Positions 6,054-33,047 of a stretch of 44,924 nucleotides of DNA are shown here, piece after piece. This DNA comes from Elusimicrobium minutum. GTDB taxonomy: Bacteria; Elusimicrobiota; Elusimicrobia; Elusimicrobiales; UBA9959. How positions within the stretch are numbered: the stretch's first letter is position 1; each line of letters begins with the position of its first letter. The position numbers and the translations under genes are program-made. The notes beneath the pieces are model-generated. The model worked only from the letters and a program-made list of their open reading frames with translations. It was not told the DNA's origin and did not search any database. The DNA lies in contig DYIF01000019.1 in assembly GCA_020723765.1 (NCBI GenBank), positions 1 to 44,924 of the forward strand. Reading direction: 5' to 3'.

Positions 6054-6071
6054 TATTTAACCGCGTAGGTT
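6054..6071 (+). repeat. 18-bp direct repeat upstream of RAYT gene, copy 1
   Basis: Identical to 6118-6135 (offset 64). Its core AACC-GCGTA-GGTT is an imperfect palindrome, as expected of a REP-like hairpin or an operator. Confidence 0.85.
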
Positions 6072-6117: not shown

Positions 6118-6135
6118 TATTTAACCGCGTAGGTT
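6118..6135 (+). repeat. 18-bp direct repeat upstream of RAYT gene, copy 2
   Basis: Second identical copy, ending five bases before the RAYT start codon. A TTGACA (6078-6083) and a weak TAAAAC (6101-6106, 17-bp spacer) lie between the copies, so the repeats bracket the promoter. Confidence 0.85.
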
Positions 6136-6139
6136 GGAT

Positions 6140-6778
6140 ATGGAATACGGGGATATTGTTTTTTATCATGTTTTTAATAAAAGCATTTTCGGCAATATAT
6201 TTAACGAGGATAGGGATTTTGAGCGATTTAAAAAGACGATGATTTTTTACTCATATAAAGAAAACTTTACACCTTCTTATAAAATTTTTTCAAAATCAAA
6301 AGACCAATCAAATTTTTTAAATTATACCAAAGGTCAAACTAAAATTATAAACATAATATCATACTGTCTTATGCCGAATCATTTTCACATTCTTATATCC
6401 GAAGCCAAAAATTATTTATCCAGATACCTTAATAAGCTTTTAGATAGCTATACCAAATATTTCAATATTAAGTACGGTAGAAAAGGCCCTTTATGGCAGT
6501 CAAGAACCAAAAAAATATTACTGGACAAAGACTCTTATTTCATTCATTTAACGAGATACATTCACCTAAACCCGGTAACGGCATATCTTACGGAAAAACC
6601 GGAAAACTGGAAATTTTCTTCTTATCATGAATACATAAATTCAAAAGAGGAGATTTGCGAGTACAAACGTTATTTTCCAGAAAACTACGATTTTAAAACC
6701 CAATACAGAAAATTCGTGGAAGACCGAATAGATTACCAGAGAAACCTAAAAGAGATAGAATACCTTATAAAAGAATAA
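6140..6778 (+). CDS. REP-associated tyrosine transposase (RAYT, Y1_Tnp / IS200-like)
   Basis: A 212-residue single-strand DNA transposase-type HUH nuclease. The metal-binding HUH motif is in LMPNHFHILIS (residues 78-87; His81 and His83) and a nucleophile Tyr is expected in SYTKYFN (103-109). The segments GPLWQSR, YIHLNPV and WKFSSYHEYI are characteristic of RAYTs rather than IS200. RAYTs are thought to spread or maintain REP palindromes and are usually domesticated single-copy genes without inverted ends. The ATG at 6140 is chosen; an in-frame TTG at 6134 lies inside the repeat. The 18-bp repeat pair upstream is a natural candidate substrate or operator. No SD. Confidence 0.9.
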   Translation: MEYGDIVFYHVFNKSIFGNIFNEDRDFERFKKTMIFYSYKENFTPSYKIFSKSKDQSNFLNYTKGQTKIINIISYCLMPNHFHILISEAKNYLSRYLNKLLDSYTKYFNIKYGRKGPLWQSRTKKILLDKDSYFIHLTRYIHLNPVTAYLTEKPENWKFSSYHEYINSKEEICEYKRYFPENYDFKTQYRKFVEDRIDYQRNLKEIEYLIKE

Positions 6779-29195: not shown

Positions 29196-29246
29196 CAAAT
29201 TATCGTCTTTTCGTTTAATACCCCCAAGCGCCACCCCAAATTTTTT

Positions 29247-29359
29247 GCGACATTTTAAGCCGATCGGCTCATTTTGTCGCAATTATATTTTATATATGAA
29301 AAAGACAAATAAACGGCGCATAAATGCTACGATTTTGACCGATCGGCATTTTTCGGAGA
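29247..29359 (+). repeat. Palindromic repeat block A, upstream of PaaX-like gene
   Basis: Two palindromes 79 bases apart. The first (29247-29280) has GCGACA/TGTCGC arms symmetrical about GCCGATCGGC (29259-29268); the second is centred on CCGATCGG (29339-29346) with CGATTTT on the left and ATTTTTCG on the right. The same block recurs at 29960-30070 on the other side of the PaaX-like gene. Between them, TTTTATATATGAA is conserved as well. Confidence 0.9.
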
Positions 29360-29386
29360 ATAGATATTTTTTAAAAAGAAATATGT

Positions 29387-29392
29387 TATAAT
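29387..29392 (+). promoter_or_regulatory. Extended -10 box for leaderless PaaX-like gene
   Basis: TGT-TATAAT (TATAAT at 29387-29392) places +1 at 29399, exactly the G of the GTG start codon. The second palindrome of block A ends about 35 bases upstream, in a position where a bound protein would affect the promoter. Confidence 0.7.
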
Positions 29393-29398
29393 TTTTTT

Positions 29399-29956
29399 GT
29401 GGACAGGGACAAAATAGAAATTTTTTTAGAAACTTTAGCCCTAAGAATTCTTATATTATTAGAGGCCGGGATTGATATTTCTTTTAAAAGCGCCAACGCT
29501 AAATTAAAAGCTTCATTAAGTTTGCCATACGAACTTAAAGACGCAAGAGAAGAAGTAATCACGGCAAAAATAAGACAACTTTACAAAAATAAGCTTATAC
29601 AAAAAAATTCAAAAGGCAGATACGTTTTAACATCAAGAGGCAAGAAATATATTGAAAAATACAGGTTTAACAATCTTAAACTTGATATTCAAAAGAAAAA
29701 ATTTGAAGGGAAATGGAGCATAGTCTTTTTTGATATTCCGGAAACAAAAAGAAAATTAAGAAATCTTTTTAGAAAGCAAATTAAATTGTTGGGATTTTAC
29801 GAAATACAAAAAAGCGTTTTTGTAATACCCTGCGTATGCGAAAAAGAAATAGATTTCTTAATAGATAGTTACGATTTGAGAAAATATGTAAGATACGGAA
29901 TACTTACAAAAATAGACAATGAACTCCATTTAAAAAGGATGTTCGGCTTAATATAA
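29399..29956 (+). CDS. PaaX-like transcriptional regulator (winged helix plus Cas2-like domain)
   Basis: 185 residues. The N-terminal part (about 10-95) reads as a winged helix (ALRILILLEAGID, VITAKIRQLYKNKLIQKNSKGRYVLTSRGKKYI). The C-terminal part (about 104-182) contains KWSIVFFDIPETKRKLRNLF and KLLGFYEIQKSVFV, the ferredoxin-like, Cas2-related fold found behind the winged helix in PaaX. Start is a GTG at the predicted +1. It is bracketed by two copies of a ~110-bp block with four GATCGG palindromes, suggesting autoregulation and control of the divergent WG gene and the downstream sugar-transferase gene; a mobile origin is the alternative. Nuclease activity of the Cas2-like domain is not implied. 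Codons are plainer AT-type than in the core genes. Confidence 0.82.
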   Translation: MDRDKIEIFLETLALRILILLEAGIDISFKSANAKLKASLSLPYELKDAREEVITAKIRQLYKNKLIQKNSKGRYVLTSRGKKYIEKYRFNNLKLDIQKKKFEGKWSIVFFDIPETKRKLRNLFRKQIKLLGFYEIQKSVFVIPCVCEKEIDFLIDSYDLRKYVRYGILTKIDNELHLKRMFGLI

Positions 29957-29959
29957 TTT

Positions 29960-30072
29960 GCGACATTTTAAGCCGATCGGCGCATTTTGTCGAAAATAGG
30001 TTTTATATATGAAGAAAATGGAATAATAATACAAAAAAAGAGACGATTTTGACCGATCGGCGATTTTTGTAG
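29960..30072 (+). repeat. Palindromic repeat block B, downstream of PaaX-like gene
   Basis: Near-copy of block A starting four bases after the PaaX-like stop. First palindrome 29960-29993 (GCGACA ... GCCGATCGGC at 29972-29981 ... TGTCGA), second centred on CCGATCGG (30053-30060) with CGATTTT on the left. Spacing between centres is 80 bases versus 79 in block A. The sequence between palindromes is diverged except for TTTTATATATGAA. Confidence 0.9.
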
Positions 30073-30176
30073 ATTAATAAAGATTTTAGGGAAAGATTGT
30101 AATTAAAACAGAAAGAAAAAGGTTTGAAACAAAAGTTACAGGCTTTTAAAAACAAAAAATTTATAAAATATATGAT

Positions 30177-31615: not shown

Positions 31616-32035
31616 ATGAAGTTGGATTTTACATCTTTTGAAAAAGCCATAAACTCTTTTAAATCCGCTTTAGATTTTATCGACTCGGAAGAATTTAAAA
31701 GTTTTTCGGAAGATAAAAAAAACGTAATAAAAGCCGGAGTAATACAAAATTTTGAGTTTACATACGAACTTTCATGGAAATTTATCCAGAGATATCTTAA
31801 AGAAAACATAAACAAAGAAATAGTGGAGGGATTGTCCGGAAGAGAGCTTTTTAAGTATGCGAAAGAAAAAAAACTTATAGAAGATATAGATTTATGGCTG
31901 ACATTTCATCAGGCAAGAAACGAAACATCTCATACATACGACCAAGAAAAATCTGAAGAAATAATTAAAATAGCTAAAATTTTTTTACCGGAGTCTAAAA
32001 AACTTCTTTCGATACTTAAATCAAAAAATGAATGA
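31616..32035 (+). CDS. HEPN-family protein (HI0074/HepT-like nucleotidyltransferase partner)
   Basis: 139 residues, all alpha-helical. The family segments FEFTYELSWKFIQRYLKE and WLTFHQARNETSHTYDQE are present; RNETSH is the R-X4-H motif of HEPN toxins (catalytic RNase site in HepT-like proteins). Works with the adjacent nucleotidyltransferase (MNT), which in characterised HepT-MntA pairs neutralises the HEPN toxin by AMPylating it next to this motif. Its stop overlaps the MNT start by eight bases. Leaderless start. Whether this pair is a toxin-antitoxin system is inferred from family. Confidence 0.88.
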   Translation: MKLDFTSFEKAINSFKSALDFIDSEEFKSFSEDKKNVIKAGVIQNFEFTYELSWKFIQRYLKENINKEIVEGLSGRELFKYAKEKKLIEDIDLWLTFHQARNETSHTYDQEKSEEIIKIAKIFLPESKKLLSILKSKNE

Positions 32036-32321
32036 TATAGAACCAAGAATAAAAAAATTGATAACCCAAACCATAAAAAAACATATTCCCGATGCGAAAA
32101 TTTTAATTTTCGGCTCAAGAATAAAAGGCGATTTTACTCAAAACTCGGATATAGATATAGCGATAAAATGTGACAAAAAAATAGAAATCCGGCTGATAGC
32201 CAAAATAAAAATGGATTTAGAAGAATTGGAGATAAACCATAGGATAGACCTTATAGATTACAATTCGGTTTCAAAAGAGTTCCAAAAAATAATAGACAAT
32301 TCCGCTATAATAATAGATTAA
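32028..32321 (+). CDS. MNT-type minimal nucleotidyltransferase (MntA-like antitoxin)
   Basis: 97 residues. The Pol-beta-type motif is intact: FGSRIKGDFTQNSDIDIAI (about 28-46) with GSR..G and the metal-binding SDID, and a third acidic residue in HRIDLIDY (about 76-83). Expected to nucleotidylate and inhibit the HEPN protein encoded just upstream. Overlaps that gene by eight bases. Confidence 0.88.
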   Translation: MNDIEPRIKKLITQTIKKHIPDAKILIFGSRIKGDFTQNSDIDIAIKCDKKIEIRLIAKIKMDLEELEINHRIDLIDYNSVSKEFQKIIDNSAIIID

Positions 32322-32377
32322 CTCTTATAAAATCTTTTAAAATCGACTATACTAAATTATGATATACTATAATTGAT

Positions 32378-32686
32378 ATGGAAGAAAAAATAAGCGAATT
32401 AAAAAAATTTTTAATAAAAACATTAAACCCAAATAAGATAATTATTTTCGGTTCAAGAGCAAAAAATGAAAACAAAAAATTTTCCGATATAGACATATGC
32501 GTTGTAGGCTCAAACAAACCGGACCACACTTCAGTTAGAAAAATAAAAGAAGAGATAGATGAAATTTTAGGGATATATTCCTACGATTTGATATTTTGGG
32601 AAGATATAGACGAAGAGTTTAAAAAAATAATAAATAGTACAGGGAAGGTGATATATGACAAAATCGGAAGTAATAATCGCAATTGA
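32378..32686 (+). CDS. MNT-type nucleotidyltransferase, second module
   Basis: 102 residues. FGSRAKNENKKFSDIDICV has the core GSR and SDID residues, but the second Gly of the usual GSRARG is Asn. YSYDLIFWEDID supplies a possible third acidic residue. TATACT/TATAAT boxes at 32363-32373 lie 4-10 bases before the ATG, so the message is nearly leaderless. The next gene overlaps its end by 32 bases. Order here is MNT then HEPN, opposite to the preceding pair. Confidence 0.85.
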   Translation: MEEKISELKKFLIKTLNPNKIIIFGSRAKNENKKFSDIDICVVGSNKPDHTSVRKIKEEIDEILGIYSYDLIFWEDIDEEFKKIINSTGKVIYDKIGSNNRN

Positions 32687-33047
32687 AAGATTAAAAAAAG
32701 CTTTTCAAAAATTAAAAGAAGCGACTATAAAAGCAAAAGACGACTTAGATAGAGACGGAGTTATTCAGAGATTTGAATTTACAACAGAACTTCTATGGAA
32801 AACTTTAAAAATAGTGCTTGAATACCAATCGATAGACGCATCTCAAGGCCCCAAATATGTAGTGAAACAGGCATTTAAATTCGGCTATATTCCGGATGAT
32901 GAAATTATTTTAGACATATTAAACGATAGGAACCAAACTTCTCATATATACGAAGAAAAAACCGCCGAAGAAATATACACAAGAATATCAAAAATATATG
33001 TATCAAAAATAGAAGAAATAATTAAACATTTAGAAAGCAAAGTATAA
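32655..33047 (+). CDS. HEPN-family protein (HI0074-like), second module
   Basis: 130 residues; alpha-helical with FEFTTELLWKTLKIVLEYQ and LNDRNQTSHIYEEKTA, again with R-X4-H (RNQTSH). It has a good SD (GGGAAGGTG) inside the end of the MNT gene, which it overlaps by 32 bases. It differs clearly from the first HEPN protein (for example KYVVKQAFKFGYI here versus GRELFKYAKEKKLI there), so the two modules look like separate acquisitions rather than a recent duplication. Confidence 0.86.
   Translation: MTKSEVIIAIERLKKAFQKLKEATIKAKDDLDRDGVIQRFEFTTELLWKTLKIVLEYQSIDASQGPKYVVKQAFKFGYIPDDEIILDILNDRNQTSHIYEEKTAEEIYTRISKIYVSKIEEIIKHLESKV

Follow-up and report, generated by a model that had tools for sequence, protein, structure and literature searches.

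Paired palindromic elements around a Cas2-fold gene

The window (the whole 44,924-nt stretch of DNA analysed here, part of the 2.1-Mb Elusimicrobiota genome G000) contains a gene for a 185-residue protein, with two palindromes upstream and two downstream. Each palindrome harbors one exact CCGATCGG site, at 29260, 29339, 29973, and 30053. These four sites are all that the window holds, compared with 0.45 expected, and none of 100 shuffles gave four. The features of the locus are as follows.

29243..29367, + strand: upstream ~120-bp palindrome-spacer-palindrome element (C17a); 137 bits with model R1, by construction, as R1 was built from C17a; aligned with three other copies
29245..29282, + strand: upstream P1, GCGACA arms about GCCGATCGGC
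29324..29361, + strand: upstream P2, weak palindrome on CCGATCGG
29399..29956, + strand: gene for the winged-helix plus PaaX_M/Cas2-fold protein, 185 residues, GTG start (Pfam, AlphaFold, and PDB fold matches)
29956..30081, + strand: downstream ~120-bp element (C17b), starting at the stop codon of the gene
29958..29995, + strand: downstream P1
30040..30075, + strand: downstream P2

Each element is composed of a palindrome, a 48-bp spacer, and a second palindrome, about 120 bp in all, and the palindrome-to-palindrome spacing is 79 bp in one block and 80 bp in the other. The segments 29244-29303 and 29957-30016 form direct repeats with 90% identity, and the downstream P1 is identical to the upstream P1 at 37 of 40 bases, in direct orientation. 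This arrangement agrees with an earlier reading made from the letters of the window (the sequence-only reading), which described four palindromes in two duplicated blocks bracketing the 558-bp gene. That reading assigned a long and a second palindrome to each block. P1 is indeed a true palindrome, with complementary bases at 16/22 and 15/22 positions in its two copies, whereas P2 is only weakly palindromic (12/22 and 11/22).

The protein matches the Pfam family PF20803 (PaaX_M; E 2.2e-19, 69.7 bits against a cut-off of 24) and, more weakly, the Cas2 family PF09827 (E 5.5e-7); its winged helix gives a weak match. The start of the gene is uncertain, GTG being the assigned start, and the congeneric homologue starts further in. 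The best PDB folds for the AlphaFold model (pLDDT 86) are Cas2 structures and E. coli PaaX, with borderline E-values, and the score against the NCBIfam PaaX equivalog TIGR02277 (26 bits) does not reach its cut-off of 264. The PaaX_M/Cas2 fold was found in 21/21 family members tested. Moreover, the Cas2 signature (DIPE...R...GF...Q-S) is kept, with D112, R121, G132-F133, Q137, and S139 invariant in 21 sequences. PaaX is a repressor and not a nuclease. The conserved positions suggest that an activity on DNA has kept the Cas2-like residues in place. Neither cas1 nor a CRISPR array is located beside the window gene, and the cas9-cas1-cas2 locus of G000 lies on contig C1.

The sequence-only reading saw no other copies of the blocks, which holds for the window but not for the genome, where further copies are located on contigs C1, C6, and C32. 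Paired elements are found at C1:29484-29608 and C1:46898-47023, again with palindromes 79-80 bp apart, and solitary palindromes at C6:241953 and C32:36561. All four paired copies can be aligned over their whole length of ~120 bp, and they have the spacer motif TAWATGAAAAA in common. The window copies are 75% identical to each other and 65-70% identical to the C1 copies. Judged by this alignment, both window blocks are copies of one ancestral ~120-bp element, from which the constant spacing of 79-80 bp is inherited. The earlier argument from helical phasing, that a spacing kept while the spacer diverged indicates function, fails on this account, because the four paired copies align throughout and the spacing reflects common descent.

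The same palindromes in G000 adjoin cas9/alr, a DMT-type transporter gene, a thioesterase-like gene, and others. One paired element (L127, G000:C1:46904-47017) is positioned between alr and cas9, ~50-80 bases ahead of the cas9 ORF, which belongs to a type II CRISPR locus also encoding Cas1 and Cas2. Outside G000, model R1 gave only chance-level matches in the family. Viral contigs contained no match to the element or to the protein, and a viral origin was rejected on this basis. Rfam returned no match for the palindromes, and no promoter/terminator or Rfam-element explanation fits them. Another strong palindrome of G000, with different arms (TAACCACTTATACGAACGA), is located at L205:790 (G000:C19:769-812). 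It resembles the TAACCAC palindromes of the genome G002 (L206, L207), and no gene of the PaaX_M/Cas2-fold family was found beside it.

Homologues and their cognate palindromes

A profile search of named genomes retrieved 20 homologues, nearly all from Patescibacteria, a huge group of tiny bacteria; an earlier search of genome contigs with the single protein as query had given no match. The gene is present in 90 of the 287 Patescibacteria genomes sampled, in up to 11 copies each and some with stop codons, while full-length relatives occur in only 3/295 Elusimicrobiota genomes. The family is thus patchy in distribution, multi-copy, and partly broken, nearly all genomes compared being draft metagenome assemblies. 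In a tree of 76 proteins (midpoint root only), the proteins from G000 and from G001, a genome of the same genus, group together (100/100) and are nested in a well-defined clade of Patescibacteria proteins (support 97/98); the two proteins of G002 occupy another part of the tree. The simplest reading of this tree is that the gene was transferred from Patescibacteria into Elusimicrobiota, probably twice. Gene neighbours are not conserved among homologues, and no conserved operon partner was found. In the genome G528, four paralogues (L317-L320, 54-68% alike) each contain one internal TAA or TAG. This may mean that the copies are decaying, that the stop lies where the profile ends, or that a different genetic code is used.

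Most of the 20 homologues have one palindrome of 38-44 bp on either side of the gene (usually 36-44 bp in the wider family), with a core that is usually ACGATCGT (GCCGATCGGC in the window). A repeat of at least 12 nt common to both flanks was found for 21/29 homologues, chosen by protein score, and for 0/8 controls. In an enlarged set, the flank repeat lies above all 390 shuffles for 53/78 family genes versus 6/153 control genes (p 5e-26). Here the shuffles are approximate dinucleotide shuffles, the controls are other genes from the same loci, and the family set adds the paralogues of nine multi-copy genomes, four of which were already known to bear palindromes (a mild bias). About 20 of the 78 family genes are without matched flanks. 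A stricter even-centre palindrome test placed 36/79 above the null; the flank-repeat test is preferred, because the even-centre test misses odd-centred palindromes. Of the flanking pairs, 43 are direct and 10 inverted. The two copies bordering a single gene often agree at every base over 32-40 nt, and they differ between paralogues of one genome. In most homologues the upstream palindrome is centred at -11 to -135, in the promoter zone, and the downstream copy is located +13 to +94 past the stop. In addition, a 123-aa lipoprotein-like, non-PaaX ORF is found between 43-nt exact direct repeats holding a palindrome (L194:1254-1867, G306:C17), a possible cassette with another cargo.

The G001 homologue, 53-57% identical, lacks flanking palindromes. 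Palindromes sharing the CGACA arm, on a GACGATCGTC core, are dispersed in G001, where they form part of a ~144-bp repeat with five copies. This repeat (L078-L082) is MITE-like, with four near-complete copies (92-100% identical) and one partial copy (96%), and its TCGACA...GACGATCGTC palindromes are located at the repeat ends, inside longer shared sequence. Coincidence was first suspected because this homologue has no blocks and its genome holds other copies, and the palindromes were read as a common type of dispersed REP with no connection to the gene, a view overturned by the wider homologue set. The search of homologues for flanking blocks had been proposed in the sequence-only reading, and most homologues proved to be bracketed by palindromes of their own rather than consistently lacking them.

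Cognate copies are dispersed beyond the gene. R3, a covariance model of the palindromes trained on those near the gene, has scattered matches in 16/19 gene-bearing genomes. One genome holds several palindrome subfamilies, and several of these match a paralogue flanked by the same subfamily. In the genome G301, for which solitary copies were recorded first and the flanks of other genes read afterwards, the palindrome flanking C20:4319 (AATTTGCGCAAATTGTCCGA and its mirror) recurs exactly or nearly at L208, L212, L213, and L218; cognate dispersal is likewise observed in G558, G310, G306, and G308. Dispersed copies are for the most part homologous only as far as the palindrome extends, and their asymmetric unpaired middle bases agree too, which argues that the copies were copied and not separately evolved. 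Among 49 dispersed copies, 23 are located between tandem genes, 11 between convergent and 8 between divergent genes, 6 inside ORFs, and 1 at an edge. The sequence-only reading had reasoned that palindromes lying away from the gene, with no relation to it, would speak against a link between the two; they do lie away from the gene, but as cognate copies.

Palindrome matches (E <= 0.001, strict filters) were found in 33/287 Patescibacteria genomes. The gene occurs in 29 of these 33 and in 61 of the 254 other genomes (OR 23, p ~1e-12, kinship not corrected for), a comparison that is not fully independent because some palindrome matches are gene-flanking copies. Matches away from any gene are present in several of the genomes (G444, G558, and G541), and the family gene was undetected in 4 of the 33 palindrome-bearing genomes. 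Compensatory changes on both sides, at 7/20 positions in two palindrome subfamilies, indicate that palindrome symmetry is maintained. Arm similarity does not correlate with how similar the proteins are (n=46, Mantel r about 0), and co-evolution of the arms with the protein sequence was rejected on this basis. Moreover, the paralogues L146/L147 of G298, ~79% identical in DNA, have the core ACGACCGT in common and entirely different arms on both sides. A simple one-to-one recognition of the arms is therefore unsupported. The comparison suggests that what is recognised, and stays constant, may be the core or else the palindromic shape as such, and that the arms may be acquired with the site.

Palindromes are also located within protein-coding genes. 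In the genome G306 they lie in frame inside miaA (two copies, the second diverged), a FemAB gene, an O-antigen-ligase gene, and an HTH-domain gene (L199, L189, L195, L196), encoding SYxxHDRxxNT-like peptides (SYLSHDRIKNT, SYFAHDREKNT, SYFSHDREINT, and SYLFHDREINT). Alignment of G306 MiaA with the solved MiaA 3d3q reveals insertions of ~30 and 9 residues exactly at the palindromes. This alignment is the strongest evidence for the well-supported interpretation that solitary palindromes have been inserted into existing sequence, in the manner of the Rickettsia palindromic elements.

Probable mobility of the palindromes and alternative explanations

We favor, with a probability of about 0.55, an explanation in which the palindromes and the gene form a REP/REPtron-like family of minimal mobile repeat units, with a Cas2-fold protein in place of the Y1 transposase. 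Movement of the palindromes is well supported, and co-occurrence together with flanking suggests that the Cas2-fold protein, rather than another enzyme, moves them. The core unit would be palindrome-gene-palindrome, about 650-700 bp, and the palindromes would also exist solitary or as short palindrome-spacer-palindrome elements, some of them inside genes. The protein, of a dimer type, would bind the palindrome as a symmetric dimer, its Cas2-like halves sitting over the core and its winged helices over the arms. It would control its own transcription, and it would cut or synapse the palindrome ends, so that further sites receive copies of the cognate palindromes through an activity that the gene provides in trans. 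The minimal mobile cassette considered in the sequence-only reading is close to this model. It is in line with homologues bracketed by their own palindromes, with dispersal, and with insertion into genes; insertion into pre-existing sequence was observed for solitary palindromes but not for the gene-bearing unit, for which no empty site was found. The patchy multi-copy distribution of the gene and its co-occurrence with palindromes also speak for the model. Against it speak the unflanked G001 homologue, the family genes without matched flanks, the four palindrome-bearing genomes in which the gene was undetected, the missing correlation of arms and protein, and the repressor function of PaaX.

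A more specific mechanism, which we put forward as speculative and rather doubtful, is drawn by analogy with Cas1-Cas2, which duplicates the CRISPR repeat. The Cas2-fold protein would be the mobilising enzyme of a new REP-like class, cutting or synapsing at the palindrome and inserting DNA, with the ~40-bp palindrome duplicated on either side of the insert. If so, one reaction would yield both the palindrome-gene-palindrome and the palindrome-spacer-palindrome units, and a Cas2-like fold would be working in mobile DNA without Cas1.

Alternatively, the protein could be a PaaX-like repressor, the flanking palindromes being its operators, possibly with looping, and the dispersed copies its regulon or decoys. 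Membership of the PaaX_M family, the winged helix, the position of the upstream palindrome in the promoter zone of most homologues, the dyad symmetry kept by the sites, and a protein with no known transposase motif all fit such a regulator. It is nevertheless a possibility that we rate well below mobility, as a second and often identical copy just past the stop codon is unusual for an operator, and the dispersed copies agree over 40 bp including unpaired bases, are inserted in miaA, and occur between convergent genes (11/49) and in ORFs (6/49). These locations, copies beside cas9/alr and elsewhere, and the non-conserved neighbours also count against the suggestion, in the sequence-only reading, of a compact switch that controls the WG-repeat gene and the polysaccharide genes. 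Autoregulation may be true in addition to mobility, yet it leaves the dispersal unexplained. Signals of a structural kind at gene ends (terminators, mRNA-stability hairpins, or an RNA element) would account for the many near-perfect inverted repeats and their two-sided compensatory changes. This interpretation is very improbable: the palindromes occur on both the upstream and the downstream side of one gene, as well as in divergent intergenic spaces, they have no T-run and no counterpart in Rfam, and their association is gene-specific. Furthermore, the middle is not self-complementary in the window, L147, L152, and L159, yet the copies match there exactly or nearly.

It is unlikely, too, that another enzyme, such as a Y1/HUH protein (TnpA-REP), moves the palindromes as REP/MITE elements, with the Cas2-like gene as a passenger or domesticated binder. 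In favor of this view, a Y1_Tnp gene is found in 23/33 palindrome-bearing versus 114/254 other genomes (OR 2.8, p 0.009, kinship not corrected for), the only Y1 gene of G000 lies in the same window (6134-6778), and one non-PaaX ORF, that of L194, also lies between palindrome-holding repeats. Against this, 10 of the 33 palindrome-bearing genomes are without a Y1 gene while 29 carry the Cas2-like gene, and the repeat ahead of the window's Y1 gene, TATTTAACCGCGTAGGTT, is different from these palindromes. A RAYT-driven REP was rejected given this other repeat and the weak Y1 association. The RAYT-like Y1 gene (+ strand) is preceded by two identical 18-bp copies of TATTTAACCGCGTAGGTT (6054-6071 and 6118-6135), which are 64 bp apart, contain GTAG, and are unrelated to the GATCGG palindromes.

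Comparison with known systems

REP-like palindromes are among the commonest bacterial repeats, and the Y1 transposase is, to our knowledge, their sole known partner enzyme. For several REP classes and for the Rickettsia coding palindromes we know of no mover, nor, for the latter, of any partner gene. REP/REPIN palindromes with their RAYT (TnpA-REP) are dispersed 20-40 bp repeats occurring as singlets and doublets (PMC3116915, PMC3733652). In the REPtron the gene is flanked by cognate palindromes, subfamilies each have their own gene, and the repeats outnumber the gene copies (PMC3116915, PMC3733652). In the system described here, the palindromes are likewise dispersed and multi-copy, single or in pairs, and the associated gene, of a different family, is flanked by its cognate palindrome. 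It does not belong to the REPtrons, because the flanked gene encodes a winged-helix/Cas2-fold protein and not a Y1 HUH nuclease, and because the GTAG/CGTC tag is absent at the palindrome foot (by inspection of the G000 alignment and the palindrome tables). Copy numbers, in the tens, are also low by comparison.

CGTC-tagged REPs are dispersed palindromic repeats without a known transposase (PMC3733652). They have 8-9 bp stems, a CGTC tag, and a CCA tail, whereas the palindromes here measure 36-44 bp and are centred on a core of the CGATCG type. Rickettsia palindromic elements (RPE), about 150 bp long, are in-frame insertions in unrelated protein genes (PMC10969869, citing Ogata et al. 2000). 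The palindromes here are similarly in frame in protein genes, but measure 40 bp and have a partner gene. The PaaX repressor resembles the window protein in its winged helix, its PaaX_M Cas2-like domain, and its palindromic operator (here a putative site). Unlike PaaX, the protein comprises 185 aa without the PaaX C-terminal part, is multi-copy, and has the palindrome on both sides of its gene. The ferredoxin fold with the D/R/GF/Q-S signature is common to Cas2, and an insert bordered at each end by a partly palindromic repeat of ~40 bp recalls the repeat-spacer-repeat duplication by Cas1-Cas2. In contrast to CRISPR Cas2, no Cas1 or array adjoins the gene, and an extra winged helix is present.

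The literature searched (PaaX with Cas2, palindromes, or Parcubacteria; palindromic repeats of Patescibacteria), subscription papers and preprints aside, contained no published description of such a system, and it seems to be a form of minimal mobile DNA not described before. REP-like palindromes would thus be tied to a second protein family, unrelated to the first, in a third of the Patescibacteria genomes sampled, making the question of what moves them directly testable. For the Cas2-like fold and the question of its origin before CRISPR, the system also offers a concrete role outside CRISPR that can be studied, and it would represent a mobile element of Patescibacteria with genes that probably carry plain annotations as Cas2 or PaaX-family regulators. 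Elsewhere in the window, ORFs at 31616-33047 resemble HEPN/nucleotidyltransferase (MNT) toxin-antitoxin pairs, as judged by eye from their translations.
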